Part shown: positions 5,574 to 25,505 of the stretch, in pieces
Layout: every line of letters begins with the position of its first letter
How positions within the stretch are numbered: position 1 is the stretch's first letter
Origin: Coriolopsis trogii
Lineage: Eukaryota; Basidiomycota; Agaricomycetes; Polyporales; Polyporaceae
Length of the DNA stretch: 64,000 nt
NCBI GenBank assembly: GCA_020543525.1
Contig: JAHYIO010000039.1
Location: 682,001-746,000 of the forward strand
Direction of reading: 5' to 3'
The notes under the pieces: model-generated
What the model was told of the DNA's origin: nothing
Database searches by the model: none
Seen by the model: only the letters and a program-made list of their open reading frames with translations
Made by a program: the position numbers and the translations under genes

Positions 5574-5677
5574 CTGTGATAGTACGATGGACGTTCTTCC
5601 ACTCGATTCAATAGAAATACTCTGTATGCTGTGTCCCTCGGCGGTGCAAATGCACTGTGTGGGCGTGCCATTCGGCG

Positions 5678-5756
5678 CCGCGCGGTCGGGTCATGGGAAC
5701 CTGGGGGGTGTTCCGCGCGGGTGGTCGGCCGGGAGGCATAATGGTGAGCCGCGCGG
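5678..5756. repeat. CCGCGCGG array L1 (3 sites)
   Basis: Exact palindromes start at 5678, 5713 and 5749 (spacing 35 and 36). Mirrored by array R6 in the right arm. Confidence 0.9.
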
Positions 5757-6294
5757 ACCGGGTATGGGTGAGTGATCGGGTGGTGGTCCGGGGTAGGGGG
5801 ACCGTGTTATGAGCGATCTGGACGTGTTCTGGGGTTGTAGACTGTCTGTATTCACCTGCATAGTCCCTGTAGGCACTGTGAGTGACAATGCAACGTTTAC
5901 CGGGCGTATTAAAGCAACACGAGGGGTGAAACAGTGAGTTGGAGCGGTCCGGGCAGGGGGACCGGGTGGCGGCTTGTGGGCCGGGAGGCAGGTGGATGGG
6001 TCCGGACGCCTTGGGCGAGTTATGGAGGCTACTCCCATGCTGGGAGATGTGGTTTAGAGGGCATATGGGGCCTGTGCGAGGCGGTGCGGGCGGTGGGGGA
6101 TGGGGGTAAGGGGTCGGGTTGTGGTTCGCCAGCCGGCTGCTTTGGCGGCTCGGACGGACGGCCTGTGTTCGTCGGAGCATATGGGTCCGGGCATAGCGTT
6201 TGGGACCTGTGGAAGCGGGTGTTGAGTGGAAAATAATATACAGCTATGGTCAGGATGGTGAACCGAGCGGCATTGGAGATGGTGGTCCGGTGAC

Positions 6295-6472
6295 CTGCGC
6301 GGAGTTGGCCATGTGGTGCGATGGGTACCGCGCGGCCCGACGGCAAGCCCGATATGGTGTTCCGCGCGGGCTTCACCCTGACTTTGGGTGTCCGAGCTGC
6401 GCGGTCGGTGTCACCTCTGGTATTGGTGCGCCGCGCGGCTCGGTATAAAGCAGTGCAAGGCGTTCCGCGCGG
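6295..6472. repeat. CCGCGCGG array L2 (6 sites)
   Basis: Sites start at 6295 (CTGCGCGG), 6328, 6362, 6397 (CTGCGCGG), 6431 and 6465; spacing 33, 34, 35, 34, 34. The 6295 variant is CCGCGCGG in the right arm, so here a CG became TG. Confidence 0.9.
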
Positions 6473-6524
6473 CCGCCTGCCCACTGCACCAACCGAACCG
6501 CGGGTGCACCAGCCGACCCGGATG
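6441..6524 (+). repeat. Subterminal direct repeat, copy 1
   Basis: About 84 bp, from the ATAAAGCAGTGCA motif to CCGACCCGGATG, repeated in the same orientation at 7252-7335 and inverted near 24,525-24,608. Confidence 0.75.
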
Positions 6525-6644
6525 CGACCCCACACTCCTCCTATGAGGTTCTGGTATGGTCCGTCTTGTATGCCAGGGCGGCCCTTATGCAATCCTCATT
6601 TATTACGCCTCTAACAAACTGTGCTTCAATGGTATGACTTCGTA

Positions 6645-6757
6645 CCGCGCGGAAACTCTGGACCTCTCGTGCGCCCGAACCGCGCGGACCGCTGGCGCCA
6701 AGTCGTTGACCGAGCCGCGCGGAGAGCACAACCGCTCGGATGGCTTGAGCCGCGCGG
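6645..6757. repeat. CCGCGCGG array L3 (4 sites)
   Basis: Exact sites at 6645, 6680, 6715 and 6750, each 35 bp apart. Lies just inside the left inverted repeat and has no right-arm counterpart by sequence. Confidence 0.9.
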
Positions 6758-7072
6758 CCATCTGTTCTATGTTTCCGGTCCATATGGTGTTCAAATTATC
6801 CTCGCCGTTTACCGTGCCAAGTGCACATCATGATTCACATTGTCATGCGCTCACAATGGCAAGAGCGAGGTTAAAAGGGAAGTCTGGGCCATACTCGCTA
6901 GCAATGGAATTGACATGTGATCCAAATTTAGCTTCCTGAACGAGGATCTACCCCGCCGCCATGGACGCCGACTTGGCAGTCTTTCACGGACGACGCTGCT
7001 GGAGCGACTTGTAGGTCAGGCATGCTATGCTCCTGGTGGAAGATACGTTTTGGACCGCGGTGATCCAGTGAT

Positions 7073-7283
7073 CCGCGCGGAGCTGGCAAGGTGCTGGGCA
7101 AAGTACCGCGCGGGCGTGGGATGACGCTGGGAGGGTGTCCCACGCGGGCTGTACAAAGACTTTGGTTTCCGAGCCGCGCGGTCGGTGCCGCTTCCAGTGT
7201 CAGTGCGCCGCGCGGCTTGGCATAAAGCAGTGCACTGCATTCCGCGCGGCTCAGCATAAAGCAGTGCACTGCGTTCCGCGCGG
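7073..7283. repeat. CCGCGCGG array L4 (7 sites)
   Basis: Sites at 7073, 7106, 7140 (CCACGCGG), 7174, 7208, 7242 and 7276; spacing 33 and then 34 throughout. The 26-bp spacers before 7242 and 7276 are near-identical (both hold CATAAAGCAGTGCACTGC), which indicates growth by duplication of a 34-bp unit. Confidence 0.9.
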
Positions 7284-7335
7284 CTGCCTGCCCACTGCAC
7301 CAACCGAACCGCGGGTACACCAGCCGACCCGGATG
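7252..7335 (+). repeat. Subterminal direct repeat, copy 2
   Basis: Same-orientation copy of 6441-6524. It marks the inner limit of the left flank arrays, just before the first coding region. Confidence 0.75.
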
Positions 7336-7515
7336 TGACGGACCGCTGGCGCCCTGTCTCGGACTGACCCTGTGGGCTGACCCCCCTAGAGGGCGCGGTA
7401 TGTGCCGCAGAGTGGGTTTGACAGAATTGGCTGTATGCTGGACACATCCTGGTGCGGCTGGGCAACTCCGGTGGTCACTTCCATGGTTGTACTATGCGGT
7501 TACATGGGCACTGTG

Positions 7516-8324
7516 CTAGTTTAGGGTTTGGATGTTCTCGTCAGCGCCCTCCATGTGCCCTTCCGCCTGTTGTGCCTCCATCCTGTCTCCGAGCCGGGAG
7601 GCCTCGCTGTCATCTGCGCCCTCGCCGGTGATGATCGTGAGGTCGTGAACAAGGGTGTCGTAATTGTCAAACATGGACTCGGTTGCTTGGGTGATGGCAT
7701 CGAGGTGGACGTTTATATCAACAACATCCCAGGCATACAAGGCTATGAGCTCGAACTGTACCCCAACAAGAAATCAGAACTCACCACAAATTCGGGAGGA
7801 GACAGCCACCAGCTATGACCCTCCACAATTTGAACATTCTGGGCGTCTTCGGGCCACTCCCACCACCTTCGGACCATAGGTATTTCAACATTCATCTCGG
7901 GGACGTCTTCAGCCAGTTGTTTGAAAGCCGCCAGGTTCAGGTCATCCATTGCGATTGACATGGAGAGTCCTCGCCATGCGGCATGACGTAGGAGCTCTGT
8001 GATGATTGCTGGCAACACCGGATCAGCCGACTGGGTCGCCCCGGTGGGCACTGCAGGCGATAGTGCTTTGCCGGTACAGTGTATTCCGTAGGCCGCTATG
8101 GCGTCCCACTGGTAAAAGTAAACAATTAGTGACGGCGCGCTTGAGTAGTGGTGAATCTTGGGACCTACGCATTCTATTGCGAGGCCTGTTCCCCATCGCT
8201 GTTTGGTTATCTGCGACGGGTGTTCGGGATAGGCCTTGAAGGCGGTAGCGACCTTGTTGGCGATCCATTCGAGTTCGAACCTTCCGCACTCCGAGAGCAT
8301 AATATCGGCGGCGAGTGGAGGCAT
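7516..8324 (-). CDS. Unidentified accessory protein of the KDZ element
   Basis: A two-exon minus-strand gene immediately downstream of the transposase. The main exon can start at ATG 8324 (MPPLAADIML; an upstream ATG at 8453 is also in frame). It contains aromatic-rich segments such as VRRWWEWPEDAQ. A second exon probably begins FELIALYAWDVVDINVHL and ends in an acidic tail (GADENIQTLN). The connecting intron is uncertain, because the nearest GTGAGT-to-CAG pair leaves only about 29 nt. I recognise no family. It shares strand and spacing with the KDZ and TET genes, so a role in mobility or its control is inferred only from position. Confidence 0.5.
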
Positions 8325-8486
8325 TGGTATGATTGTAGGAGGGCAAGATGGGGCGGATAAGCTTTTGGAAGCTGTAGCCTTTGTCACCAGCGGGCCGGGC
8401 CAATGAAGTAAACGCCGGCCGTGGCCCGGGCCGTCATCCGAGCCGCAATTCAACCGAGTAACTCAGAACGTACATACTAAAGTGAA

Positions 8487-11400
8487 CTATAAGGATACAG
8501 TGGGGGCTTTCCAAATACGCTGTGCCTCGAAGAACTCTCTGGAGGCATGAATTGCCAGGGAATCCCAAAGAGCAGCCTGCCGGCATGCCCAGGCACGATA
8601 ACCGCGGCCGAGCGATGAATCTTTGCGCTGCAGCCACTCGTCCCGATTTTTTTGGAAGGAGGTCTCCGTCCGGAAAAACTCTTCGCTCACAATGTCTACC
8701 TCCTCCTCCCATCGCGTCTTTCTCGCATGGGCTCTCAGCCAGAGAACTCGGTACACTGTGGTCAGCCGGCCCAGGTCAGAGCTGCGGGATGCTAGAGAGA
8801 CAATGGCTACTCACATTCTGCCATCCAGGCGCTGCCCTTTGTTTCCATGTTGACGTCAAGAGACCAAAACCAGGGGAGGTGCTCGTGCGAAACACCGCGG
8901 ACGTCGTGTTCGATTAGGGTTGTGTTGGCCTTGAGGTCTGATTTCTCCAGGACCCGATATTTAGCCAGCATCTCCTCCTTCAGCTTAGCATCCGCCGGAA
9001 TGCTGTCGTCATAGAGACTCATGAGGGAGGTTCGAGCACACATATACAGACGGGCATGTGCCAACGTGTCTTGATTGGAGTTATGCACCTCGTCAAAACT
9101 TCGGAGGCGTGCGCGGTACGAAGTGGCCCATCGGACAGACGATCGGTAGAGGAAAGACTTGTAGGCGACGCCCACGCGAACTGCGTGCAGGGCGTCGTTC
9201 ATCTGCCCCACGCGAAGGCGCCGCTCTTTGACAACGAGGTCTTTTAGCCCATGCATAGCGCACAACGCGGGTCCGAGATTCGAGGGCAGGCCGATAGTGA
9301 TCCGTTCCGACGGCTGTACCGGACCGGTCGACTTTCGAGGGGTGGATGTGGCATTAGGTGCAGTGGTGGCAGACGAAGATTCACCCACTGTTCTCAGCTG
9401 GTTCTCAGCGCTGGATGCAGCATGGGACTCCAGGTTGGATTGTGGGAGTGGATCTTCGTCCTCGTCATCGCTATGATTGTCGACCGGTTCAGCATCGGCC
9501 GAGCCGGACCCCGGCTCGGATGGCTTGAGCGTATCCCAGCCGGCGCCCGGTGATTTCGTGGATGGCGGAAGGAATAATGCCGTTGAGAGGGCTGCAGCTG
9601 GCAAAAACCGGCTGGCCTCCTTATGGAACTTCTCTATGTCCCTTAGCAGCCTCACGCGCATCTGCTCGAGAGCCAGATGGTCCTTGGTGGGCGAGGTAGA
9701 CCGAAGTTTTCGGGCGGTGGCTGCTATTTCGAGACTGCAGTGCAAGTTCTCGTTAGATACAGCTATATGACCTCCATAAGATCACCGTTCGTACCGTTTC
9801 TCCTCAATCTTGAGGCCTGTCTGTAACCAGGCAACCGCTCCGCGCAGCTTAGAGGGGTGTTTGGTCTCCTCTTTCGTCAGCTCCAGAGCGATCTCTTTTC
9901 TTGTGGGCACTGTCTCCAAGACTCAGTGAACACACGTCGTGCGATAGAGGGGGAGAGTACTTACGGCTGTCTTCTGACATGTCGTATATGTCCATGACTT
10001 TGATGTTCTGTCTTCGTTGCTCGGCCGCTTCCTTCGCCATCCGCGACCATACACGCACGTCATTTGGGTCAGATGTGGCCGTGATGGAGCGAAATCCCTC
10101 TTGGGCACCCGGTGTCTCCTCTGCGGCATTTCGCCACTTCTTTACGAGAGATGCGGCTTGCAGACCGTTAGCCGGAACATTTTTCGGGTGGGGGGCGCAT
10201 GCTTACTTAGGCAGGTGAGCTTGTTCCAATTGGAATCGTTCATGAAATCGTCATTGAACTCTTGACGGTGCGCAGCCGACATGCCACGTGTGCTATCGCT
10301 GATTTTGTTCAGAGGAGCCCAGAGCGTTTCGATGATGTCCCCGGTTTGGACTCCGGCTCCAGGTACAAAGTGAGGTGAGTACCGCGGGTAGCATTCCCGC
10401 TTATGACCATGGATGTGAAACTGATCAATACCACCCGAAACGACGAGGCCCTCCGGAATTGATATGCCGGGGCTCTTCTCCATTCGGGTGAGCAGATGAA
10501 CGGAGTAGAAGCACCATATGTCGTAGAACACAAGGAGGAACGTCAGCCCGGCCAGGAACGACATGGCCTTGCTGAGGACATAGTCCATATGTCGTTGACT
10601 GTGTGCTTTGTCAGTGGCGGGCTGTCATGCTTGACGTCAACACACTGACCCTTCGCCTGCATCAAAATCCACACATGAGTGGGGATAGAAGAATCCATGA
10701 CGACTGCAAACTGCCGCCCCTATTCCAGTTGCAGCCAGCTTGGCACGCTCCGTGGACGATCCGAGGACTGCGCGATGCTCATGGCATTCCAGTTTCTGCC
10801 AGGCTCGATCAGCATCTATTGGTCAGACTGATTTCGGGCCGGCTCAACTGACCTGTCGAACTCGGAAAGCAGTTTTCAGGTGCTCCTTGAAGGGAGAAAC
10901 TGCAACCGCGCAGCCATGCCCGTCGGCGAACCGCACGTCTAGTTGTGGATACTTCTGAAGCTGATATTGTGCAGCGAAGTTGCCATCGAGCATGCATGAG
11001 CCAGCATGCTTCCACCTGCACCGTATGTTCCAATGTACAGTATGAACATCGGAATAAGCACTGACGAACTTACCAACGTTTGTCGGTCTTCCATCCGTCC
11101 CTCATGTTCCGGTTCGGCCATGGACAAGCCGGGCACCGGAAGATGAACTGCCCTCGCCCTGGCTGGAGCAGATCCTCATATCCAACCCCACTCGTTTTCC
11201 ATGACTTCAAGTTTCTCCACTGTCGTGAAACAGGTAGCAACTCTCTGTATCGATTCTGAAGTTGAGACGTTAGAAGTGGGGTCGGTGCATGTGTCAGCCG
11301 GAAGGCAGCCGTACCGGGACGGAATGTGGGAAGAGATCGTCGGTGACACGTCGCAGCTTGTTGTAGTAGTTTTGTATCGAGGTCTTGCACTCTTTTGTTG

Positions 11401-12787
11401 TTAGCAGCACGTCGTCCAGGACCCGAAACGTGAAAAGTGTCTTGGGCCTTGCGGTGGTGGCCGGATACAGGCCGAGCCGTAACAGCTGAATGTCGAGTGG
11501 AGGGGAGTCGTGGCACGCACAGGATACCACTGGAAGTTCGTGCACCCCTGAGGTATCCACAACTACCATTACCCTGGTGTAGTCGCCTTCCATGTCCGAG
11601 AAAACTCGGTTCAACCCATCGGGCGGTGCCCCACCCGAGCCGGGCATGTGAGACGCGTCGTCCGACTTCACACCGTAGGCATCGTCCGGATTGTCTTCTT
11701 CGGCCTCCAGTATGTCCTGGATATTCTCCTCCGGAACCTCTACATCTGGCCCTTCCAGACGTTGTCTTGTCATACGAACGTTGGCGTCGTCTTCTGACTC
11801 AGAGTCGGAGTCCTCTGGCTGGGAACGTTTCATGGGGGTGATGCTTGGGCCGGCCGATGGCCCGACCCGTGGGCCGGAATATGGGCGCCTGGGGAGACGT
11901 CTCGGCAAACTTCTGACAGGTGTATTTCTCGCAGTAGACCTTAACGATAGCACTGGACTAGATGGAGTAGAGGAGGCGGGCAATGGAGATGAGGGTGGTG
12001 GTGGCGTCCCTGGTTCGGAGTGATATTCGTGCCCCGGTTCAGAGATGGGCGACGATGCGCGATCGTTGTCGTGCTAACAGAGTGATGAGCTTGAGCCACT
12101 GCCAGGTATTACGGATGCATACCTCGGGAGGTTCACTGGGTGCGGTTGAGTGCGGTTGTCTCCAGCTCGTGTCATCCGTCCATTTGAGACTCGGACAGAC
12201 TTCTCCTCCGTGACCGAGGTAGATACGGACGCCCGTGGACCGAAGACTTGACTTTTGGTAGTGAGTACCGGTCCACTGCTCAACGCGATGATAGGGATGT
12301 CGAAAGTGGGCCTCTTTGCAGCACCTCCTACACTGCGGCCGTTGGCTAGAGCAGTCGAGGCAACGCCAAAGTGCTGGTCCCCCACACCCGCACATGACGT
12401 CGTCTTCCTCAGGCGGGGCCTCCCTCTCGTACAGCTCGCGGAGGTACGTGGCTCGGAATTCTCTCAGCCATAGAAGCTGATACTCATTGGGCTTCTATTC
12501 CAGCGGGCCGGCCCGTCAACCTTCCATTTGGATCCCCAATTACACCAACGTACCTGTGGGCCTACAAAGGTGAATTCCCCAACCGACATCTCCAGAAAGT
12601 CGGGGTTGTTCGAAGTAGGCAATACCTCTTTGGGCTCCCTGGGCTTCCTCACCCGTCGCTGGGCCCCCGATGGTGCTCCCGCTGCACTGGCTGTCCATAC
12701 ACGCTGGGTGCCTCTTTTCGTTGTCTTGGTGGCGATAGTCAGAGTCTGATATGCGGGATGTGGTGTAGCACGAGGACGACGCGTCAT
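8487..12787 (-). CDS. KDZ transposase with CxC2-like cysteine cluster
   Basis: Starts at ATG 12787 and runs through about ten exons. Domains in order: an N-terminal basic region; a CxC2-like zinc cluster, CGCGGPALWRCLDC, followed by CRRCC, H and a W.G motif; a second cysteine part, SCACHDSPPLDIQLLRLGL with FTFRVLDDVLL; the linker CPACPWPNRNM; and the RNase H-like core. In the core I see LDGNFAAQYQ, then RFADGHGCAV, then DYVLSKAMSFLAGL and FYDIWCFY, then FHIHGHKRECYPRYSP, GDIIETLWAPLN and STRGMS. The acidic residues in DGNF, YDIW and IIETLW are the likely catalytic D-D-E. A helical C-terminal domain ends with WLRAHARKTRWEEEV. All exons appear open with normal splice sites, so the gene looks functional. 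Stop at 8487. Confidence 0.92.
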
Positions 12788-12848
12788 GATAGAGTTATGC
12801 AAAGGCGTTACAAGTACAGAGGACGATTCAAGCGTGGCGTTGAGTATA

Positions 12849-14148
12849 CTATGGTCCGGATAGCTCGTCCCGCGTAACCCAAGGCACATCCTCGCCAGAG
12901 AAATTGTTATGTAAGGAAGCGGACATGTACCAAGTGTAGCATATACGGTCCGGCTCAACTTTGGCTACCCCATGGTGGATAAGCCGGCTGGACATCAACA
13001 CCGCCGTTCCCGGAAGGTATCCGACTTGTATTCCGATGTTCCGGAGGACCAGTGCTGCCTTGGAACACGTTCCGAGTGACATGAGGAGCTCGTACCATGT
13101 GTCTTTGCCAGAGGTGTCTCGATGAAAGGGAGTCTCGCGGTTTATGATTACTTGGGTACTGTGCCATACCGCAGGCCACAGCCTGTGATGTTCTCCTACC
13201 GCGGTTGATGCTGCGTCTGCGGCTCGGGCCATCGTGACCCGGGCCGCGCGGTACAGGGCCGGATGAGTCACAAACAGCAGAGCGCTGCACAGCGCGCCTG
13301 ATTCCTTTATACGGTCGCACCATACAGCTCCGGCAGGCGTATTAAGCTGTTTAGATGGCCCTGGCTTGGTGGCTTTGCCCTGCAGCAGTATTCGCGCGTT
13401 TGAATGGTCGTCCGGTCAATTATTCATTGCGGCTCACCTGGTGCCCGCACGGATACTGGACTGGACTGCCGAGCCACTGGCCGGACTGCCATATGTGACC
13501 CGGGCCGTAAAAGGTAGGAGCCGACCGCCACTTAACCGCGGGATCGTGTGTGGGCGGGCCAATAGTAAACTGAGCCTTGATCGCATCTGTAGCGTGCAGC
13601 ATGGCATCCTGGAACTCAAGATTAATTTGTCATCAGCGCTATTGCAAATCAGCTCGCTTCACCTGACGCTCAGAGCTTAACACCCCCGGCAGGTACCAAA
13701 GCAGGATGCGATTCTGCGGGTCGACAAGTACGGCCGGCCGCCGTAAGAGCGGAAAGTTATTCTGAAGCACAGCTTCAATACCACACATGGGCGGGAACGT
13801 GTCTAGCAAAGCGTCCTCAAGGGCCATGCACAAGCCGCTTGGGCGCTTGGAGAGTTGGTCTGCAAGATCTTGAGCATTCCAGGGCACTGGAACTATCGGG
13901 GAGATGGTCAGCGATTGTGAGCCGTCCGCAGTCTCGATCAAATATCTACCCGGGTAGCTCCACGCGGATGAAATCACATCTGCTGCCCGTTGGAGATCGG
14001 CCTCCAGTCCATCGGTCCAGTCTGATATGCCAATGCCTGTGGGAACTGTTGGACTGGATACTATGCAGATTCGCGCAAGTACTAGGTCTCTGAGATGAGC
14101 AGAGACACGGTCGTGGAACGCGCCAGAGTCAGCGGGATATGCATCCAT
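12849..14148 (-). CDS. TET/JBP-type 2OG-Fe(II) dioxygenase
   Basis: Three exons from ATG 14148. Exon 1 (about 157 residues) ends WYLPG. Exon 2 holds WLGSPVQYPCGHQ. Exon 3 carries the double-stranded beta-helix core: HPALYRAARV, then VIINRETPFHRDTSGKDTWY with the HxD iron ligands, then GYLPGTAVLMSSRLIHHGV with the distal histidine, and DRICYTWYM with the 2-oxoglutarate arginine. Order and spacing match the fungal TET/JBP family, which oxidises 5-methylcytosine. The protein is about 390 residues. Its stop lies 61 bp upstream of the transposase start on the same strand. All ligands are present, so activity is likely. The expected target is DNA cytosine methylation, possibly in the element itself. 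Confidence 0.9.
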
Positions 14149-14452
14149 GGCGGAGCAGGGTCAAGGGTCACGCGTCAAGTCTGTGGCGTGATAAGGTGTC
14201 GTGTGGAGGGTTTGATGCGCAATCAGCGTGCCTACTTGGCGCGAGGCGGGAGGAGAGGATCGCCACATTGTTCTGCCGCCCGTATCGATGGCCGGACCGG
14301 TCCCATCCGACCCGAAAGCCTCATCCGGGCAACGACCCGTGAGCTGCCCCACCGCCCGGATGACTTAGTATCAGGACGAGGGCTACGACCGGGCCAGGGA
14401 TTATCATTGCTTTGTTTTGTTTATACGCCTTTTTGCTGCACAATCCACCACA
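14149..14452. promoter_or_regulatory. Divergent promoter, TET/JBP and basic C-tail gene
   Basis: A 304-bp gap between the minus-strand dioxygenase and a plus-strand gene. Both must start transcription here. It ends in a T-rich stretch (TTGCTTTGTTTTGTTTATA) just before the plus-strand ATG. No palindromic CCGCGCGG is present. Confidence 0.5.
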
Positions 14453-16781
14453 ATGGCCGCCGTGGCTGAAGACCTAGGGCTCACCGAGAACGAACAGAAG
14501 TATCTCGAGGACCACCTTGAGTCGTGGCTCACCATGTCTAAGAACGAGAAGACCTTGGTAAAAAACGCCCTAACGACGAAGATTCTTGAGGGGCGGGAGC
14601 GCGATGCCAACGATCCATATGCGCGTAACTTCATTCAGTCGGTGAGTGCTCTTGCATGTGTCGGGCCGGGCCGTCGACCGACCCGATCCTTAAGAAAATC
14701 AACTCCTGGTTCCAACTGAACCTAAACACTGGGGCCAACCGGGTGCCGAAGGAGCTGAAGATTACCTGGAGCGGGTGGGAGGTGCACAAAGAGCTTGCGT
14801 ACGAGGCTATCGTTGCCGAACGCGACGCGATTCTCGCCAAAGAAGAAGCCGGGAGAGACCCGGCCGTCGTCCTCGATGCGGGTCAAAAACGGGGGAAGGA
14901 ATTGGCCGCCTTCAACCAGGCAAGAAGCGCGCTGTGGAGGGCGTTACCACCGGCCGAGCAAACCAGGTTCGAGGACATTGCTCGTACTTGGACTCTCCAA
15001 GGGCCGCCGGACAATGTTCGGCTCCTGTAAGTTGTGCTCGACGCATGGGCAGAATCGCGGCAAGCTCATATTTTATTTTGCACAGGTTAATCAAGAAGCG
15101 ACTACCACATTGGGTGCACGGCTTCCTCAAAATGCTGTGGGACCAGACGAAGTGTTTTGGCACCGTTGTCCTGACATACAACGACGACAAGGGGATCCCG
15201 CATACCATGCAGTATGTGCAAACTTTACGTTCCCTACGATTGCAGCTCACCCGAGCCGACCCATAGATCGGACACCAGCCAGATTTTGAAGGAGAACGAT
15301 CTGCCGCCCTTCGGTGCAAAGTATCCCGGCTGGTTCGAGGGTCCGGCTGATAAGTGCGTCCAATACATGAGACTTCTGTACGAAGACATCCCTGCCGAAG
15401 GGGACGATCAACCCGACCCGCCGCCCATTGGAAAGATTCCCTACACCGAGGACGGCTGGCCCATCCTGCCCGAGACCGACCCGACAACGGGCCGGCCCAT
15501 CGTCGGGTCGGAGATCAAGAAGAAATACCTCCTCACGTACTTTAAGGCCTTGTATGGTGAGCCTGCCATATTTTCCCCCAGTCGCTCCACGCATTGAATT
15601 GGAATTGCATGCTAGGTTTGGCCAAAGGTTACCCTCGGGGCAGCGACCCCCAGGTCCCGTGGAAACTCATCGGCAAGGATCCGAACAAGTTCTTTGAGCC
15701 GGGTCTCGTGCCTTTAAACCTGGGGGAAACATTCACTGACCCCCCGCATATGCCGCGTACGACCGCGAGGTTGTGGATGGAGATTCAGGCTCGTCAGAAG
15801 CTCCCTGGGGAGGAGGCACGAAAGTTTCGGTTCACTCATTACGCCGTCGGTTCATCAGCGGAGCTCATCGAAGCGACGTATGGCCAGGACGCTCAACCTC
15901 CACCTCAAGGGCCTCAAGGATCCCGGGCGGCGAAGAAGGCAGATGCTGCGAAGAGCTTAGCCCCGAAAGCTGCGAAGGCCGCAGCCGCTGCCGCCACTGC
16001 TGCAGTTACCGCAAAGGGTGCTGCAGATGGCGCCGACCCATCAGGGGTGCCTGCTGATGGTGCTGTGGGTGCTGCTGATAGACTGCCGCAGGCGCCTCAT
16101 GCCGGGTCAAAAAGAAAGAAAGGCAAGGGTGCGGTGGGTGGGCGGAGTCGCTCGGGCAAGCGACCAGCCAAGGACATTGTGGACGATAGCTCGACCGATG
16201 AGGGGCATTTCTCCACCCGGGGCTCAATTTGCCAAACCCCATGTCTGTCGATGACGTGGAGTCTGAAGGGATATTGGCCAGTGAGGTCGAGAATGAGGTT
16301 ATGGCTGACGACGACGGGGACCTGTCGTCCACCGGTGGGCCACGGGCTAACAGACCTAAAAGTGAGTTTTCCATTATAACGGCAGATGCAGTTTCCCCGC
16401 TGACATCATTGATCAGGGGGACCATCCGGGAAGTCTAAAGGTAAACAGCCGGCACGGATCACGGCCGTGCCTGAGGATCCTCGACCAGCCGGCGGCTCGG
16501 ATGGGGATTCCACGATCCCGGCGACATCCTCATTGGCTCCTGCCATGGATGGACCTGGACCATCGTCCTTCCCCGGATCATCGAACGTAGGCGCGCAGGT
16601 ACCCGACCCCGCAATTGATGCCCCGAGCGACGAGACGCCTACCGGTAATGACATCACAGAGGACGCCGGTGGCGCAGCGAAGGGTAAGACAGGCAAGAAG
16701 AAGGCAAGGCGTGGGGGAGCATCTGAGGGGGAGAGCCATCAGCCCGTGCGTCGGTCGGCCCGTAAGGCCAAGAGGGTGTAG
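14453..16781 (+). CDS. KDZ-element accessory protein with basic C-terminal tail
   Basis: Starts ATGGCCGCC at 14453 in a good context. Exon 1 (14453-14641) is acidic-helical (ENEQKYLEDHLESWL). Exon 2 (14695-15026) begins KINSWFQLNL and includes KELKITWSGWEVHKELAY. Exon 3 (from 15086) has LIKKRLPHWVHGFLKMLW. Later exons include GWFEGPADKCVQYMRLLYED, then an Ala/Lys-rich linker, and end with RRGG and VRRSARKAKRV, a likely nuclear localisation signal. Around 16,200-16,240 the frame must shift by one base between STDEG and PNPMSVDD. Either I missed an intron or there is an indel. I do not recognise the family; DNA binding is a guess from the basic tail. It is transcribed divergently from the dioxygenase. 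Confidence 0.7.
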
Positions 16782-17781
16782 AACGTGTGCCGAAGGGATG
16801 GTGGCTGCGTCTTCGTCCAATGTGATATCTGTCCGCGTATTTTCATGCATTGTTGCTCACGAATGTGGTACTCTCATTGTGTCTTCCACGGACACCTGTC
16901 GGAATGTCTTTGAGTACATGACCCGCAGTCCCGGCCCGACTGGCTTGGCCCGATCTTCGGCTGCCATTCTGAAAGATATAGTGACTGCATCTGCGAAGAA
17001 AACATTTGCATCAGTCATTCCTGTTGTATTGTAACATCGAGTGACTGGGGCGGTGGCACGATTGTTATCCCCATGCTCTCCCGTTCCGGTCCGGACCGGC
17101 GAGAAGAGAGGAATGCATGGATGGGGAATGGGGACCTGGCCATTAAGTGATATTTACGCAGGGGCTGGAGCCATTATTGAACACCGAAAAACATCCCACC
17201 TCATGTATCATCGGATGTGGAACCATTATCGGAAGCACTGAATGTCAATCTGCGGCAACTTTCGCACCATGCTAGATACCAAACATGTATTCCAACTTGA
17301 AGACGATGTTTATTATTTCAGAAGTCCTCGAGATGCTACACACGACCCTGCAAGCCTGGGTGGGGATTGACGCAGATACCGACCCGACGCTTGGGCCGGC
17401 CCGCGATGAGAGGCCACACAGGCGCATAGCTGTGGAGGAGACACTGGAACGCGAGCAGGACCCAGAAAAAGGTTGTATTGCATATCCGTCAATGTTGTTG
17501 AGTATTGATACGCGAAGAAAGCAATGTCCGGACAGCTCTCCTTGTCTATTTTTTCGAACCGAAGGTCTGTTCATTAACACGAAGACTGTAGGTGGGTATT
17601 GTACTAGCGGAAACATACAAAAATCATTTCAATACATTGTGCAAGATACAGAAAAATTCGCTGCCGGAGTGCATGCAACAAGATCACCAAAAAAACTGCC
17701 GGAACCAATGCTCGCCCGCCATTGCCTGACCCGTATGTCCTACCCGCACCGCAATCATTTTAATATTCGTCAGTCTAGTAG
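16782..17781. other. Convergent intergenic region inside the KDZ element
   Basis: One kilobase between the 3' ends of two element genes, with no convincing open frame. It contains the 14-bp perfect palindrome CCGGTCCGGACCGG at 17086-17099 and a GGGCCGGCCC at about 17,393. It probably holds both terminators. Confidence 0.6.
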
Positions 17782-20315
17782 TTAGCGAACATTCAAAACA
17801 ACCATTGACTTACAATTATTTTGCGGAGTCGTTGAAGCTCCCCCTTGCAGGTCCTCGTCATGATCGACTTGCATGAGCTCCTCGTCTTCCGGGCCGGAGT
17901 CCGGCTGGGGTTCCGGCACCCCTGTCATGTTGTACTCCTCGTCCACGCCCTCCTCAGGCTCGGGAGACAGGCTCTGCGAAGCCCGAGCCCGCTGTTTCCC
18001 CTTGTCCTTCTTCGCGTGGCGACGCGCCTTCCTGGATTGCGGGCTGGGCGATGACGATGGGTCGGAGGGGATATATGGCGGGACGGGAGTGGACGGATGC
18101 AAAAGGGAGCTTCGGGGGGCGCGTCTGGTGGCTGCGGCAGATGTTGTGGGAAGCCTCTCCTCCAGGTCGAAAATGCGGGCCATGAGCACGTCCATGGCGC
18201 TCGACTGACGTTTCTGTTCCTCCACAATGCGCATCTCCATGGCGAGTTTCTCGGCCTCCAGCGCCTTAACCCTGTCCTCGAGTTGAAGGACCTGGGTGAG
18301 CAGCGAGGTCGAGACGTCCTCCAGCCGCATGATACGACGCCATATATTGTCCGGCTCGGGATCACCATCCGACCCGGCGGCCTCAACGTCCTCCTGGGCC
18401 GTGGACGGCCCGGCAACGGCAGACGACGAGCCCTGCCCGACATTGACGGAGGTCGCGGCTGCCTTGGCTCGTCGTGTGCGCACCTGGGGAGGGGGGTGCA
18501 AGTCCTCGACGGCCGGGATGTCGTCCCAATCACCTGCGGGCAATAACAGTGAGCAAAACCAAAAACAGCGGACCGGACGAAAACTCACGGTCGTCGGGCT
18601 GGACCGCGGTGATCTCCCGGGTCGGACGAGCACGCTTGGCCGGGCCTGGGCCTATCTTGGACAACTATGAACTGGTTAACAACAGTAACTGGAACCCGTT
18701 AAAAAAACACGTACGGCTGGGCCCTCCTGGCTCATGGCGCTCGAGACCGAGCCGGATTTCTTGCGCTTTTTGCCCGAGGTGTTCGTGGAGGGCAGTTCCG
18801 GCTCGCCCACCTCTCTCCCGGGAACGTCGGCGTTGGTCTCGTGCAGCTTCCAAAACTTCTTCTCCCACCACTCAGGGACAGGCGCCGTTGCGAACTCGCT
18901 GTCCGCAGAGTATTCTTTGGGATGTTGGTGTTGGAGCGCCTTGTCCTTAAACCAGCGATACAGCCGGTATGTCGACTTCTTCGACCCCTTGCGGAGTTGC
19001 GGCGCAAAAGAACAAGACGTCTTCCCCTGGGCGCAGCAGTTGCATGTCGACCTGTTCGCGAGGTTAACCAGGCAGAGGAGGTTCCGGCGTTCGCAGCGAG
19101 AACATTTAATTGGCTCGAAAGACCTCAGTTCAATGATAAAACTTAAAATAAAAAAGAGCACTCACCGGACGACGCCACTCGTTCACCAGCGGCTTCTTGA
19201 GGTCAACCTCTTGGTACCGGTGGGCGGCTCCTGTCCCTGATGGCTGAGCTCTGCCTTTCTTGCTCATCGCCGAAGACGAAGGGCGTCCGGCGCCTGCAGA
19301 TGACGCTGCGCGGGAGCGCGTCCTCATTCCAGTGGAAGCGGACGCGCTGGCCGAGTCGGGTGCCATGGCCGGTGTGGCGGAAGTTGGAGCCTGGCCATCG
19401 TCGGCCCGGATCGCGGCGGCCCGGGAGCTCGCACGTCGCCTGCGGTTGGGGGTGGGCGTCGAGGGCAGTTCCACAGAGGGGAGCAATTCCGCCGCGACCG
19501 GGGGCTTCATGATTAATCTTGTTGCGCCGGTGCTAGCAGGGGCGCCTCGAGGGGCGGTAGGAGTGGGTTGGTGGGGCGGAGGGGGTGGTGCATTCGGGTC
19601 GGGTGTGGCCGCGAACCGAACCGATTTGTCGGAGAGCTCGAGGAAGGAGGAGACCCGCCGGCTAGGTGGCGTAACATTCAGTATGTCCACCCGCTTCGAC
19701 CCATGTTGAGGGTGGGAGAAGGTCGGCCCGGCTGTCATGGGGTCCCTGGATGCCGAGCCGACATCCGTCGGCCGAGCCGTGGATGAAGAGGTGGTGGTGG
19801 GAGTAGGAATGTTTGCAGGTTCCTCATCCCTGAGTCCAGACGGCGCTGGAATGCTGGCCGAATGCTGCGCTACGGCTGAAAAGCGGTCATAGAATGAGTG
19901 GGATGCATAACAGGGCGGTGCGTCCTTTCCGGACGTCATGAAAGACAAGATGAACGTTAGACTTACCCGGCCGTGTCCACCAGCCCTGTACCGTTGGAGG
20001 CTCGCGGTACTCCCGGTCCAAAATGAACCATTTGCCGATCCGGGCCGGCGCTCTCTCGAGATCTATGGCATCGACGTCGATTTGGCGTCCGGGTTGCTGA
20101 AAGGCGGCATTGTTCTGATGGACAACCGCGTTGACAAAAGGGGGAACAAGGGTTGGGGCCGTAATGCCCCTCAGGGCGGTTAGGAGGGATTTTAGCAATT
20201 TGGAGAATTGCAAAGCCCACTGCGCCCGGGCCGGGTCGGTGGACGCCGGTCGCTCCCGCCAGGCACAAAGGCATTGGAAGGCGAGTTCGTTGAGAGCAGG
20301 GTTACGGGAGGCCAT
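17782..20315 (-). CDS. Zn2Cys6-like and coiled-coil accessory protein
   Basis: Starts at ATG 20315 (MASRNPALNELAF). Exon 1 is a helical domain with FSKLLKSLLTAL and a conserved-looking IGKWFILDREY. Exon 2 is a long Pro/Ser/Ala-rich linker ending VNEWRR. Exon 3 opens with a cysteine cluster KCSRCERRNLLC...CNCC...C that fits C-x2-C-x6-C-x9-C-x2-C-x6-C exactly, the spacing of fungal Zn(II)2Cys6 DNA-binding clusters; TYRLYRWF follows. After two more introns the last exon holds a clear coiled coil (LQLEDRVKALEAEKLAMEMR) and an acidic C-terminus, stopping at 17782. This is probably a DNA-binding dimer encoded by the transposon, perhaps regulating it or binding its end arrays. The zinc cluster is mid-protein, unlike the N-terminal position usual in Gal4-type factors. 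Confidence 0.75.
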
Positions 20316-20587
20316 GAGTGCAGCAAGATGGATAGCAAGTGCAAAGCAGAGCACAGAAGAAGAGAGGGGAAAAATGGGAGTCGTTGAGTTGCGACAGTTG
20401 TCTCCGTCCGAAGACCTCTATAATGCTAATAGACGCCCATATCGTACCCTCGGCCCGGCCCGGACAATAAAGTTCACGCACGGACCAAGGCTTCCATGTC
20501 CATTGTTCAAATTTCATGGTTCTTCAGAGGACAAAAACTCAAGCCCGCCCAAGTCATTGACCGACTAGCAGCATCCCGTCGCCAAAC
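20316..20587. promoter_or_regulatory. Divergent promoter, Zn2Cys6 and 25-aa-repeat genes
   Basis: A 272-bp gap between two divergent starts. It holds CTCGGCCCGGCCCGGAC near 20,450 and ACAATAAAG about 120 bp before the chosen plus-strand ATG. Confidence 0.45.
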
Positions 20588-22215
20588 ATGTCCCAGGTTT
20601 GTCTTCCCCTGCTCTATTCCCTGGGCCGAGCCGCAAATATTTACCTCAACCAATTTCCAGCCACCACAGTCGCGTGAAGAAGCAACAAACAACTCTACGG
20701 GTCAAAACAACGCCGACAAACCACCCGGCGAAGGCACAAACAGCAGCCGTTTCTCCACTCCTCAGATGGAGCCCTGGTTCCGCGACCTCCTCACCGGCAC
20801 TACTCAACCGGGTCGCTCGCCGCCTGGACACCGCCCGCCAATTGCCCGTACCTTTCCAACGTCCCCTATTATGAATTGGCGAGAGAAAATGGTTGCTGCA
20901 GTGAGTTATAAGCTTGGCATCACGCCGAACCACTAACTGACTACCTGACGCTCGACAGGGTATGCAGGAGGTTCAGGTTTCCGGGTCGCCTATTCCAACC
21001 AACACGGATTCCAGTGAGCAAGGGGCGTCGCAAATAGGTGCCAGGCAAGAAAACCCACCCATTGCCGACCCCTTCTTTCCGGACGCATCCCCCGAGCCGG
21101 TTCGAGAAGAGGAAGAGGCTAGTGGCTCGCTCTGCCGAGCCGAGGGTTTCGTTGGAGAGGAACCGCCTGACCTCTCCACGGTTGAGCCAGAGAGAGACAC
21201 CTCGTTTACTCAGCTCAAAGACGACGACGCATCTGGGAGCGTATCTCTGCTTGTCGCTGAGCACCGGTTCGGTGACGACGGGTCTGGACCGGGCGAGGTT
21301 CACCAAGACCCCGATGCCTCCCTCTTCGTTGCCGAGGATCGGTTCGGCGACGAATCCCCTGAGCCGGGCGAGGTTCACCAAGACGCCGACGCCTCCCTCT
21401 TCGTCGCCGAGCATCGGTTCGGCGACGAATCCCCTGAGCCGGGCGAGGTTCACCAAGACGCCGACGCCTCCCTCTTCGTTGCCGAGCATTGGTTCGGCGA
21501 CGAATCCCCTGAGCCGGGCGAGGTTCACCAAGACGCCGACGCCTCCCTCTTCGTCGCCGAGGATCGGTTCGGCGACGAATCCCCTGAGCCGGGCGAGGTT
21601 CACCAAGACGCCGACGCCTCCCTCTTCGTCGCCGAGCATCGGTTCGGCGACGAATCCCCTGAGCCGGGCGAGGTTCACCAAGACGCCGACGCCTCCCTCT
21701 TCGTCCCCGAGCATCGGTTCGGTGACGAATCCCCAGCTGGGGCCGACCCGCAAATAAACAACCCTCCGCAGCCGGCCCAGGAACCCTTTCCGGGGGGGCC
21801 GATGTTTTTTTCTACACAATATTTTGCCCGTGAGGAGGCTCTCGCAGGGTCTGACGAGATGCTCGTCGATACATTCTTTGGCGACCAACCGGAGCCGGCG
21901 GCACCTGGACCCTTTGAGGTACGCCCGCACGCTGACCCGGTCCTGCGCCCTCGTTCATCCCCGAATCTCCCCGCGATCACTGCACAGGAAGCGTCCGACA
22001 GCAACGTGGACGCCTCCGAAACGATTTCTGTTACCGCACTCGTCATGAGGTACGTCGACGCCGAGGTCAGGCATTGCCACTACATCCGACAACTTGTCGG
22101 CCAGGTTCAATCGCGTGCCCTGATGCAAGAGGTGAACGGGGGCTACGGTAATCATTGGGATCACGTCCTTGAGGAGGTGCATAGGCAGCTGGGAGGGGAG
22201 GATACAGCAGACTAG
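20588..22215 (+). CDS. Accessory protein with 25-residue tandem repeats
   Basis: I prefer the start ATGTCCCAG at 20588, spliced (GTTTGT to CAG) to PPQSREEATNN. An unspliced alternative starts at 20496 and stays in frame. The next intron is 20901-20958, after KMVAA. The last exon (20959-22215) encodes an acidic low-complexity region, then seven repeats of the pattern LFVAEHRFGDESPEPGEVHQ plus DADAS, then a non-repeat tail with YCVDAE-like helical sequence (RYVDAEVRHCHYIRQLVGQV). Repeats differ mainly at H/D and R/W, so they are recent. The antisense strand is also open across the repeats, as expected for a 75-bp repeat; I treat that as a shadow. The family is not recognised. Confidence 0.65.
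21247..21741 (+). repeat. 75-bp in-frame tandem repeat (6 full units plus partial)
   Basis: Units begin at 21247, 21322, 21397, 21472, 21547, 21622 and 21697; the last is cut short after FGDESP. Neighbouring units differ at only a few bases, so copy number is probably polymorphic. Confidence 0.9.
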
Positions 22216-22510
22216 ACGATCACGCGAAAATGTACATCACATAACACGCTGTAAACATCTTGCTTTCTTGCCCAGTTGGCGACGCCTGCACACCTATAAT
22301 TCTTACAAATTGGGGTTGCTCATTTTGAGTCATGGATGGACATTGGAAGGCATTAGAGGTCTTTCGATTTTGCTTGTCCGGATCGGACTGGGCACCCGGA
22401 TGAACCAAAGATCGGCCAAGATGAGTGCGCGGCCCGGCTGCCACATCGGCCCGGCTCAGCTGACCCGCTACTCACTCCAGTGATCCAATTCAACGTTCTT
22501 AAATAGTACC
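22216..22510. other. Non-coding, inner edge of right flank
   Basis: No gene. Contains two GGCCCGGCT motifs about 20 bp apart near 22,432-22,455, just before the first right-flank array. Confidence 0.5.
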
Positions 22511-22723
22511 CCGCGCGGGAGTCAGTGGCAAGGGAATTGTGCCCCGCGCGGTGTGATGCGGGGGTCTAGATGGTGTACCGCGCGGTGCGTCGTGGGAGTC
22601 CAGATACTCCACCGCGCGGTTCATCATTGCATCACTTATTTGATATACCACGCGGCCGCTGCGTGAGCGCTGCACACTGATCCGCGCGGCCTTTCCATTG
22701 CTTGAAGGAGGTGGACCGCGCAG
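22511..22723. repeat. CCGCGCGG array R1 (7 sites)
   Basis: Sites at 22511, 22544, 22578, 22612, 22648 (CCACGCGG), 22682 and 22716 (CCGCGCAG); spacing 33, 34, 34, 36, 34, 34. Confidence 0.9.
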
Positions 22724-23093
22724 CTTCCAAAGCCCGAACCAATAGGGCTGCTCAATTCTGTCTGCTTGCTCAGATTCCTGCTTATCAGCTCAAAGCCAGG
22801 TTGCTGAGGGCCTGTGTCTGCCATGCTTGTCTTTGACAGAGAGATCCTCTTGTGGACTCAAATCGCCAGGCCGCGAGGTGCTGCATTCCGGCTCGGCCCA
22901 CGTTCGGCCCGGTGCACAATTCACCAGCGCTCACAGCCCAGCCATGCAAGTTACCATTCAGCACATGGAGGAGAGCACAGTGATTAATCAACCAAGGCTA
23001 GCATACGTTCGAGGTGAGAGTTGATATAGGAATGTTGCATGCAAGCAGCATTGACAGTCATGCCACCGCACTATTACTGCAACAGATGGGTCA

Positions 23094-23273
23094 CCGCGCG
23101 GTCCATGTGATTGTACCATCGTGAAGACTGCGCGGTCCATGTGACTGTAGCATTGTGGAGACCGCGCGGTGCTGGCCACCAGAACCCCGCTATTACCGCG
23201 CGGTGCACAAGCTAGAGTACCACTTATGGCACCGCGCGGGACATTGCGCTGACATGTGCAGAGGGCCGCGCGG
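23094..23273. repeat. CCGCGCGG array R2 (6 sites)
   Basis: Sites at 23094, 23128 (CTGCGCGG), 23162, 23196, 23232 and 23266; spacing mostly 34. The first two spacers are near copies (both start TCCATGTGA), again pointing to duplication of a 34-bp unit. Confidence 0.9.
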
Positions 23274-23629
23274 CCCACTTGTGTACATACTTCGGGCTCA
23301 ATGACAGATCTTGCTTTTGATCGGCAATAACTTGACAATATTTAGACCCCAGAGTACCTACAACTCCAAGTCATTGTAATTCGCACCCAACGCACGGTCC
23401 GGTGGCTGCATATGCTCAGGGGAAATTTGAGGCCCAGGGGAGCACCGCTCGGCTCGGATGAGAAGTCACCTGCCAGGATGCCGTTCAGCCGGTTCTACAG
23501 GTCATCATGCTTGTCAGCAGTTTGGTAGTGAGTACCACCTGAACTCACGCTCCCAGGGGCTCCTTGATGACTGAGATGGAGGCCGGCGAGCTCAGTCTGA
23601 CAAAGCAGGGCTGGAACAGTGTGAGCGGA

Positions 23630-23772
23630 CCGCGCGGTACGGATGGACATGACCCATGGGAGGCCGCGCGGATCGGTCACATAGTAGCCACACCCGGCCG
23701 CGCGTTTCAATGTAAAGATTTGCAGCCAACCTCCGTGCGGTACAGGCAGCCGGATGTTGAACGACCGCGCGG
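23630..23772. repeat. CCGCGCGG array R3 (5 sites)
   Basis: Sites at 23630, 23664, 23698 (CCGCGCGT), 23733 (CCGTGCGG) and 23765; spacing 34, 34, 35, 32. Confidence 0.85.
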
Positions 23773-24206
23773 CACACAAATGTATTCCCGGGTCGGGTCG
23801 CATTTACTTGTCGCACTGCCGACAGCAGTATTGTGCTCGGCCCAGCTTGGCCTGACCGCCGCTGGCTTTGGTTTGGAATGAGGTGCCCTCTACCCTGAGA
23901 CAAGGTAAATTGAGTTATAAGCCATGCTTCAGTGGGCTGGGCTTCGGTCCAATCTATCGCCTCGGGCCAGCGGGAGAGTCGCGCATGAGAGAGGGCGTCT
24001 AAGGGGACGGAAAGTGGCATATCCCAGCCGATTAGGTTTTTGTACCAACCGGGCGAGCTGCGCCACATGGATGGTCGCTTGACCCAGTTTAAATACAGAG
24101 TAAAGGTCAATCAATGGCAGCTTACGGGATTGAGACTTTACAACCTAGCCTAGGTAGATACACGCCCGACGGCTGCGCAGACCGCATTGCAGTGTATTAT
24201 GTCGGA

Positions 24207-24351
24207 CCGCGCGGGACAGAATAACCAGGATGTGCGACATCCGCGCGGCACAGCGACAAAGGGTTTTTGTGCATCCCGCGCGGATCATCGGTGCGGTCTC
24301 ACCAGCCCACCGCGCGGTACTGTGACTACCATCCGGCCAACCCCCGCGCGG
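24207..24351. repeat. CCGCGCGG array R4 (5 sites)
   Basis: Exact sites at 24207, 24241, 24276, 24310 and 24344; spacing 34, 35, 34, 34. Confidence 0.9.
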
Positions 24352-24585
24352 CTCATTGAATAACCATCTTCCAATGCCGCTCGGTTCACTGACCTGACTA
24401 TGGCTGGATCTTTTCCCAGCTTTGACATACCTCTCTAGAGGTCTATAACACTACACCAACCCTCCCGGTTTTGGTACAATACCAGTGGACCGTTTAAGCC
24501 GCCAAAGAAGCCCGTAGAGGGAGTGTGGGATCGCATCCGGGTCGGCTGGTGCACCCGCGGTTCGGTTGGTGCAGTGGGCAGGCAG

Positions 24586-24763
24586 CCGCGCGGAACGCAG
24601 TGTACTGCTTTATACCGAGCCGCGCGGTGCACCAATCCCAGAGATGACACCGACCGCGCGGCTCGGACACCCAAAGTCAGGGTGAAGCCCGCGCGGAACA
24701 CCATATCGGGCTCGCCGTCGGGCCGCGCGGTACTCCTCGCACCACATGGCCAACTCCGCGCGG
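24586..24763. repeat. CCGCGCGG array R5 (6 sites)
   Basis: Exact sites at 24586, 24620, 24654, 24689, 24723 and 24756; spacing 34, 34, 35, 34, 33. Mirrors L2, where two of the six have decayed to CTGCGCGG. Confidence 0.9.
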
Positions 24764-25301
24764 GTCACCGGACCACCATCTCCAATGCCGCTCGGTTCGC
24801 CATCCTGACCATAGTTGTATATTATTTCCCACTCAACACCCGCTTCCACAGGTCCCAAACGCTATGCCAGGACCCATATGCTCCGACGAACACAGGCCGT
24901 CCGTCCGAGCCGCCAAAGTAGCCGGCTGGCGAACCGCAACCCGACCCCTTACCCCCATCCCCCACCGCCCACACCGCCTTGCACAGGCCCCATATGCCCT
25001 CTAAACCACACCTCCCAGCATGGGAGTAGCCTCCATAACTCGCCCAAGGCGTCCGGACCCATCCACCTGCCTCCCGGCCCACAAGCCGCCACCCGGTCCC
25101 CCTGCCCGGACCGCTCCAACTCACCGTTTCACCCCTCGTGTTGCTTTAATACGCCCGGTAAACGTTGCATTGTCACTCACAGTGCCTACAGGGACTATGC
25201 AGGCAAATACAGACAGTCTACGACCACAGAACACGTCCAGATCGCTCATAACACGGTCCCCCTACCCCGGACCACCACCCGATCACTCACCCATACCCGG
25301 T

Positions 25302-25380
25302 CCGCGCGGCTCACCATTATGCCTCCCGGCCGACCACCCGCGCGGAACACCCCCCAGGTTCCCACGACCCGACCGCGCGG
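25302..25380. repeat. CCGCGCGG array R6 (3 sites)
   Basis: Exact sites at 25302, 25338 and 25373. Mirrors L1. Confidence 0.9.
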
Positions 25381-25505
25381 CGCCGCGTGCCACGCCCACA
25401 CAGTGCATTTGCACCGCCGAGGGACACAGCATACAGTATATTCTTACTGAATGGGCTGGTTCTTCAAGATGATTACTCGGAGTATCAAACACCGTCTTCA
25501 CTCAC

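Follow-up and report, generated by a model that had tools for sequence, protein, structure and literature searches.

Both flanks of a Kyakuja-like KDZ transposon of Coriolopsis trogii, here termed E1, carry arrays of phased copies of the CpG-rich palindrome CCGCGCGG, and we consider it probable that these arrays are iterons, i.e. multimeric sites for an element-encoded protein which would be required in cis and would probably be methylation-sensitive. The DNA analysed is a 64,000-nt window (GCA_020543525.1, JAHYIO010000039.1, 682,001-746,000, forward strand), and the distribution of the arrays is that observed in this one genome.

Phased arrays in one element clade

E1 is flanked by an exact 7-bp target duplication, has the termini CACTCGATTC...GAATGGGCTG and carries terminal inverted repeats (TIRs) whose arms, 5599-6552 and 24506-25459, are 954 nt long and 95% complementary (Table 1). 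Among nine two-ended copies the duplication is exact in seven (E1-E4 and the short elements S2-S4), agrees at six of seven bases in E5 and is absent in S1. The KDZ domain, the 7-bp duplication and the CA..TG ends of Kyakuja are all present in E1, and E1 shares these features and a CcTet-like TET with the TET-bearing Kyakuja transposons of Agaricomycetes as described in the main text of Kojima 2025 (PMC12730594). Kyakuja-1_LB and Kyakuja-2_LB are said there to be without TIRs, a trait which may not be defining and from which E1 departs with its 954-bp TIRs; E1 is assigned as Kyakuja-like only.

Table 1. Positions of the features of E1 in the window
Feature	Position	Strand	Details
Target-site duplication, left	5593..5599		GTTCTTC
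Whole element E1 (Kyakuja-like KDZ transposon, CA..TG ends)	5600..25458		19,859 bp; same borders from copy alignments
Terminal inverted repeat, left	5600..6552	+	
Array L1	5678..5756	+	3 sites, +78/+113/+149; spacing 35, 36
Array L2	6263..6472	+	7 sites; spacing 32,33,34,35,34,34; outermost unit CCGAGCGG
Array L3	6645..6757	+	4 sites; spacing 35,35,35
Array L4	7073..7283	+	7 sites; spacing 33,34,34,34,34,34
KDZ transposase region	10145..10996	-	Pfam KDZ 4.1e-25 on open frame 10145-10624
CxC2 cysteine cluster frame	11297..12073	- (as KDZ)	Pfam CxC2 1e-22
Tet_JBP dioxygenase exon	12852..13415	-	Pfam 7.4e-12
Predicted gene, cysteine-cluster protein (candidate iteron binder)	17782..20315	-	approximate exon model
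Innermost right array	22511..22723	+	7 sites
Right array	23094..23273	-	6 sites; spacing from outside 34,36,34,34,34
Right array	23630..23772	-	5 sites; spacing 32,35,34,34
Right array	24207..24384	-	6 sites including outermost CCGAGCGG; spacing 33,34,34,35,34
Terminal inverted repeat, right	24506..25458	-	
Right TIR array 2	24586..24795	-	7 sites including CCGAGCGG; spacing 32,33,34,35,34,34
Right TIR array 1	25302..25380	-	3 sites; spacing 35, 36
Target-site duplication, right	25459..25465		GTTCTTC

Exact CCGCGCGG occurs 48 times in the window: 17 copies lie in the left flank, 27 in the right flank, one in the TET exon (13244) and three to the right of the element. Dinucleotide shuffles of both flanks (n=2000) contained 0.32 motifs on average, never more than 4, and at most one phased pair, against the 44 motifs and 29 pairs observed; with the same number of motifs scattered randomly over the flanks, phased pairs averaged 1.9 and reached 8 at most. 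Chance and base composition are thus ruled out as the source of the arrays. Among the 256 palindromic 8-mers in the window, CCGCGCGG alone has more than one phased pair. Inclusion of degenerate members gives ten arrays with 55 phased sites, 21 on the left and 34 on the right. A preliminary description of this DNA had counted the same 44 exact motifs and proposed the comparison with shuffled sequence; its 52 sites (20 and 32) in ten clusters are this 55-site set minus three outermost CCGAGCGG units, which it missed. The spacing range of 32-36 bp, the three 35-bp steps at 6645-6750, the five 34-bp steps at 7106-7276 (of which 7140 is a degenerate member) and the near-duplicate neighbouring spacers were all recovered as it had given them. 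A coding repeat was rejected, as the spacings vary modulo 3 and the arrays recur in the short S elements, the longest frames of which (three frames, S1-S3) have no Pfam match.

Whole-genome counts, which also served as the comparison with random genomic regions, give 1465 copies of CCGCGCGG with 198 phased pairs, compared to 1008 occurrences and no pairs for a reversed control motif. All 198 exact pairs lie in one element clade, 194 in 11 elements and four in the relic E8, the members being five two-ended copies, two copies for which a single end was found, four short palindromic elements (S1-S4) and this one old relic. The S elements have no recognised genes, yet their ends and arrays are retained. 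Absence from all related KDZ copies, named in the preliminary description as evidence against its claim, was not observed; nonetheless, exact phased pairs are confined to this clade, a KDZ and TET locus on C8 has no CCGCGCGG in the 18 kb covered, and a KDZ element nested inside E4 has a single unphased copy and other TIR repeats of about 61 bp. Arrays of exact phased CCGCGCGG are thus not a trait of all KDZ elements. A prokaryote scan detected three consecutive phased CCGCGCGG in at least 119 stretches, and the same was seen in 13 viral-contig stretches, indicating that phased triplets by themselves have no diagnostic value where genomes are GC-rich.

The confinement of exact phased pairs to this clade and the retention of arrays by short elements without recognised genes argue against sites for host transcription factors of the CGCG type, acting as promoter or enhancer elements, as does the position of the left arrays: the KDZ gene is directed toward the left end, which places them 3' of it. 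CGCG-core sites are frequent targets of fungal factors, and with this in its favour we still judge the host-factor reading decidedly unlikely.

An asymmetric site at kept offsets

The CCGCGCGG palindrome is merely the core of an asymmetric site. Of 59 non-redundant units, 50 have a G at position -3, toward the outside (binomial p 8e-19, background 0.29), compared to 28.7% of CCGCGCGG sides (649/2264) outside the family, and this conserved outer G shows that most arrays are oriented. The orientation is new here and was missed by the preliminary description, whose bare palindrome holds as the core but not as the full site. In the innermost right array the -3 G of the common orientation is present in two of seven sites and the mirrored base in four of seven, suggesting that this array is possibly inverted, and the orientation of the E8 array at +2546 is ambiguous.

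In E1 the phased sites stand 78/113/149 and 762-865 bp from the element end, and these offsets are nearly constant between lineages. Array 1 offsets in the S elements are as in E1 and those in relic E8 are 77/112/148; E1 and E8 agree within 1 bp for array 1 and four sites of array 2, and E1 and S3 likewise agree within 1 bp. Spacers of matching arrays between lineages are 36-39% alike, against 29% for random spacer pairs scored identically, with 55/153 spacer and 52/56 motif positions identical between E1 and S3, 30/79 and 29/32 between E1 and E8, and 60/154 and 51/56 between E1 and a second E8 array. Over seven array comparisons, spacers are 28-63% and motifs 91-100% alike, the motif figure arising partly by construction because arrays were found by motif, and the independent result being that such chains exist, and at which offsets. 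The diverged spacers and the retained outer G make neutral expansion of a 34-bp minisatellite unit, already disfavoured, very improbable as the origin of the arrays, even with near-identical adjacent spacers in some arrays and in the S elements in its favour. Oriented sites, kept offsets with differing spacers and retention in short derivatives lacking recognised genes instead lend good support to putative binding iterons, as had been proposed; the 34-35 bp spacing, which is not an integer number of helical turns, counts against them.

Decay of the sites is of the CpG type. By our own tally there are 47 changes in 138 sites and, with seven C>A changes at position 4 set aside, CpG transitions account for 35 of 40. 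Motif CpGs decay only moderately less than other flank CpGs (TG/CA at 55/911 against 175/1794, p 0.001), a comparison biased toward conserved sites by the way motif sites were chosen, and this counts against the iteron reading. This decay, the three CpGs per core, the element's own TET and DNA-methylase-family matches at two loci in the genome are what would be expected of a pure CpG-modification platform, in which dense CpGs would attract methylation, be oxidised by TET and so fix the chromatin state with no sequence-specific binder. In this pure form we regard the cytosine-modification platform, which the preliminary description had raised, as unlikely, since it leaves unexplained the fixed 8-mer, the outer G, the orientation, the kept offsets and the 32-36 bp spacing, and flank CpGs outside the motifs are about twice as numerous (1794 against 911 cells).

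Genes of the element and candidate binders

The arrays are present together with KDZ, TET and cysteine-cluster genes. A second part of the KDZ region (10652-10996) has a weak match and two internal stop codons, reflecting an intron or decay. For the Tet_JBP exon, CcTet is the nearest solved structure (PDB 7vpn/8jkk, 1.5e-13), and this likeness, in which HRD and an H further downstream align to the HxD...H pattern, corresponds to an AG-type TET/JBP; the position counted as CcTet Asp337 is E.

The predicted cysteine-cluster gene, the location of which was missed by the preliminary description, carries C-x2-C-x6-C-x9-C-x2-C-x6-C in exon 18715-19113 and then a coiled-coil-like stretch. The fungal Zn2Cys6 consensus spacing is C-x2-C-x6-C-x5-12-C-x2-C-x6-8-C, and both the window copy and a relic copy, which retains all six cysteines at 46-52% identity, conform to it. 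The protein matches nothing in Pfam at E 10 or below and nothing in NCBIfam, PDB gave irrelevant matches only, and a search with one 121-residue region yielded no further relatives at E 0.001 among 51 candidates. Judged by cysteine spacing, a Zn2Cys6 identity is plausible. The exon is found at eight places in the genome, E1-E6 (with a stop codon in the E6 copy) and two beside S1 in the relic region, so that no match falls outside the array-bearing elements and the relic region, a co-occurrence that involves few lineages. The Zn2Cys6 binder suggested previously thus has cysteine spacing and distribution on its side and the lack of family-profile and relevant structural matches against it, and is plausible from the sequence.

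Under the iteron reading, the arrays look like docking sites on which movement of the element or its escape from silencing would depend. They would form part of the cis-set required by an element end, and the cysteine-cluster and coiled-coil-like protein of E1 would be the prime candidate binder, the KDZ/CxC2 protein being second. Binding by the KDZ/CxC2 transposase itself, as a multi-subunit end complex resembling that of the Galileo THAP domain, is a sub-case of the iteron reading to which we give only tentative credence. Both domains are present in E1, and the outermost site is found 78 bp inside the terminus, compared to about 70 bp for the most proximal site described for Galileo, which has further sites in its TIR repeats (PMC3688188). 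The C8 locus lacking CCGCGCGG, the single unphased copy in the KDZ element nested in E4 and the restriction of the cysteine-cluster exon to arrays or the relic region speak against the transposase as binder, but weakly, because other KDZ families may use other sites. With three CpGs per core, the sites are obvious targets for CpG methylation by the host; iteron binding is therefore probably sensitive to methylation, and the TET encoded by the element would maintain or reopen the sites.

Known systems and the role of TET

Several transposons have comparable ends. En/Spm (CACTA) with TnpA, as described in PMC2613891, has numerous short sites in its two subterminal regions, as E1 does; its DNA-binding protein in addition to the transposase, its cis-required repeats and a GC-rich part suspected of methylation sensitivity match what is proposed for E1. 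It differs in transposase superfamily and duplication length, and E1 differs from it in one strict CpG core, 32-36 bp phasing, location partly within long TIRs and an encoded TET. VANDAL/VANC of Arabidopsis is similar in its short motif, which is densely arrayed in a single orientation within the non-coding DNA of one TE family, in tandem-repeat growth and in a tie to loss of DNA methylation, but the motif, YAGTATTAY, has no CpG, the element is of MuDR type and the passages describing it mention no encoded TET (PMC5735166, PMC10398659). Galileo, a Foldback-like element, shares long TIRs and repeated sites for a transposase domain; it belongs to the P superfamily and uses a THAP domain, as outlined in PMC3688188. 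In the main text of Kojima 2025 (PMC12730594), subterminal, zinc and CpG are not mentioned, "palindrom" refers solely to borders of transferred TET genes and "tandem" stands solely in a reference title. Such arrays are not described among the matches listed (titles and abstract openings, open-licence literature) on KDZ/Zisupton/Kyakuja, TnpA/subterminal, TET-JBP/TIR, CxC2 or subterminal CpG, and CCGCGCGG as a whole word retrieved seemingly unrelated open-licence papers only.

For a transposon group that is poorly understood, the arrays provide a terminal structure, together with short partner elements which seem to have been mobilised. The reason for TET genes in transposons is unsettled, and a single element in which a defined, repeated CpG-cored cis site occurs alongside a TET gene and a putative binder makes this question testable. 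More speculatively, and with considerable doubt on our part, E1 may be a self-contained epigenetic switch with its own TET and its own iteron binder, in which demethylated CpG-core iterons would license binding and movement in cis, and of the S elements in trans.

Phased site arrays in E1 and across the genome

The preliminary description had reported 44 exact copies of the 8-bp CpG palindrome CCGCGCGG in the two flanks of the KDZ element E1, and this count is reproduced, with 29 pairs being phased (start-to-start spacing of 32–36 bp), whereas 2000 shuffles of the flanks, the control proposed at that time, gave a mean of 0.32 motifs and at most one phased pair. The ten clusters are likewise recovered as ten arrays, comprising 55 sites when degenerate members are included. 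Genome-wide (38.8 Mb, 39 contigs), 1465 CCGCGCGG and 198 phased pairs are present, compared with 1008 sites and 0 pairs for the reversed palindrome. The site arrays are real.

The left terminal inverted repeat (TIR) of E1 detected 43 matches in the genome, and the copies compared were the long elements E2–E7, the short elements S1–S5 and two end regions of an old relic, E8. E2–E5 are two-ended, E3 and E4 carrying insertions, and one end was found for each of E6 and E7. The E3 insert is LTR-retrotransposon-like (∼6.5 kb, 568-bp direct repeats) and that in E4 is a second KDZ element. Target duplication is exact in seven of the nine two-ended copies (E1–E4, S2–S4) and holds for 6 of 7 bases in E5, while at S1 the flank of one side recurs inverted on the other, the 20-bp flanks being perfectly inverted. 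S1–S5 span 3.9–6.3 kb, with ∼560 bp of end 74–77% identical to E1, and are foldback-like and mostly palindromic, with internal repeats at a ∼169-bp offset and ends and arrays common to the 20-kb element. They contain frames of up to 298 codons and are treated as lacking recognised genes because S and E interiors gave short tblastx matches of low identity, many lying within array stretches, and three long S frames have no Pfam match. All 198 phased pairs of the genome fall in these copies, 194 in E1–E7 and S1–S4 and four in E8, with none in S5. The arrays are confined to one transposon clade within the one genome examined.

Conservation of offset and orientation, and CpG decay

Array 1, the first cluster from the terminus, lies at +78/+113/+149 from the element end in E1 and S1–S4, the first site being mutated in S3 and the third in one end of S4, and at +77/+112/+148 in E8, with first and third sites mutated. 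The second cluster, array 2, spans +663 to +865 in E1 and +663 to +967 in S3, and its E8 sites (+763/+798/+832/+866) parallel those of E1 (+762/+797/+831/+865). Between E and S, identity is high over the terminal 200 bp (87–100% per 30-bp block) and lower beyond (∼50–83%), so array 1 shares in a general conservation of its surroundings and array 2 provides the cleaner test. Between lineages, spacers are 36–39% identical (random 29%) and motifs 91–93%, the latter partly by construction because arrays were located via the motif; in duplicated arrays inside E1 the values are 28–63% and 94–100%. Independent of the motif-based search, phased chains occur at matching offsets despite nearly unrelated spacers.

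Orientation was scored from the terminus inwards. Among 59 non-redundant sites (flanks <60% alike), G occupies −3 in 50, T/C dominates at −4 (45) and −12 (46), and T/A at −2 (45). With redundancy retained in the E1, E8 and S3 arrays, the outer G occurs in 77 of 87 sites and the inner-side mirror base in 23. At this position, G is present on at least one side in 312 of the family's 333 exact motifs; G frequency on the sides of motifs outside the family is 28.7%. The exception is the innermost right array of E1 (G in 2/7), which may be inverted, and one E8 array is ambiguous (1/4). In E1 and S1–S4, array 2 has CCGAGCGG as its outermost unit, as does one E8 array.

In aligned E flanks, where non-CpG divergence is 0.8–2.4%, CpG to TG/CA change affects 55 of the 911 cells within motifs, compared with 175 of the 1794 that lie outside them (p 0.001). 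In degenerate sites 35 of 40 changes are CpG transitions, seven C>A at position 4 being set aside; this CpG-type decay suggests methylation of the sites within silenced copies. DNA-methylase-family matches occur at two loci of the genome.

Genes of E1 and a candidate binder

The ends of E1 form a 954-bp inverted repeat with arms 95% complementary. Its TET exon matches CcTet (1.5e-13), whose Asp337 is important for 5mC according to PMC12730594.

Features of E1 and related loci (window positions unless a contig is named)
Feature	Position	Strand	Remarks
Element E1	5600–25458		starts CA, ends TG; GTTCTTC at each side
KDZ, CxC2, Tet_JBP frames	within E1	minus
TET exon	12852–13415	minus	HRD and downstream H retained in alignment to CcTet; Glu at position counted as CcTet Asp337
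Cysteine-cluster gene	∼17782–20315	minus	revealed by E1–E5 comparison; exon model approximate
Cysteine-cluster exon	18715–19113	minus
Repeat-bearing frame	20941–22215	plus	424 codons; 75-bp (25-residue) tandem repeats; gaps in aligned E5 copy
Right interior	17233–22761		14–21% different from E3–E5
Array-bearing right flank	22802–25458		∼95% identical to E3–E5
Diverged repeat copies	965–2859; 25733–45800	both	several, up to ∼1 kb, beside E1
Scrambled old relative	C4:∼1390552–1434956		KDZ, TET, cysteine-cluster matches
KDZ element in E4	C4:2141237–2154972		∼440-bp TIRs with ∼61-bp repeats; CA..TG ends; apparent 7-bp duplication GTTGGGA

The diverged right interior beside a right flank of ∼95% identity suggests exchange between element variants, and the repeat copies beside E1 are perhaps a clustered gene family. 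Between E1 and E5, replacement to silent codon change ratios in the cysteine-cluster gene frames are 0.84–1.31, lowest or near-lowest there, as against mostly at least 3. The predicted product has the spacing C-x2-C-x6-C-x9-C-x2-C-x6-C and a coiled-coil-like stretch, the latter indicated by inspection of the sequence and a DUF7310 match, itself weak (E 0.007).

The cysteine-cluster exon has eight matches genome-wide, six in E1–E6 (with an internal stop in E6) and two in the relic region, where S1 adjoins one copy and a second, inverted copy lies on its other side. The nine Tet_JBP matches comprise six in E1–E6, one in the relic region, one near KDZ on contig C8 and one on C30; the C8 KDZ and TET locus has no CCGCGCGG in the 18 kb read and no cysteine-cluster exon match. 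Site arrays and this exon co-occur, with few lineages behind the pattern, and the protein, of putative fold, is a candidate binder of the sites.

Relation to known systems

E1 is Kyakuja-like in duplication length and CA..TG ends but has TIRs, which the two described families are said to lack (PMC12730594). Its architecture resembles En/Spm subterminal repeats (PMC2613891) and Galileo long TIRs (PMC3688188), and VANC target arrays are likewise dense, same-oriented motifs (PMC5735166; PMC10398659); as far as the excerpts of these sources describe, E1 is distinguished by its CpG core, strict phasing and encoded TET. Selection is very probably acting on the site arrays, whose mechanism is inferred; judged by architecture, they may function in the manner of these three systems.
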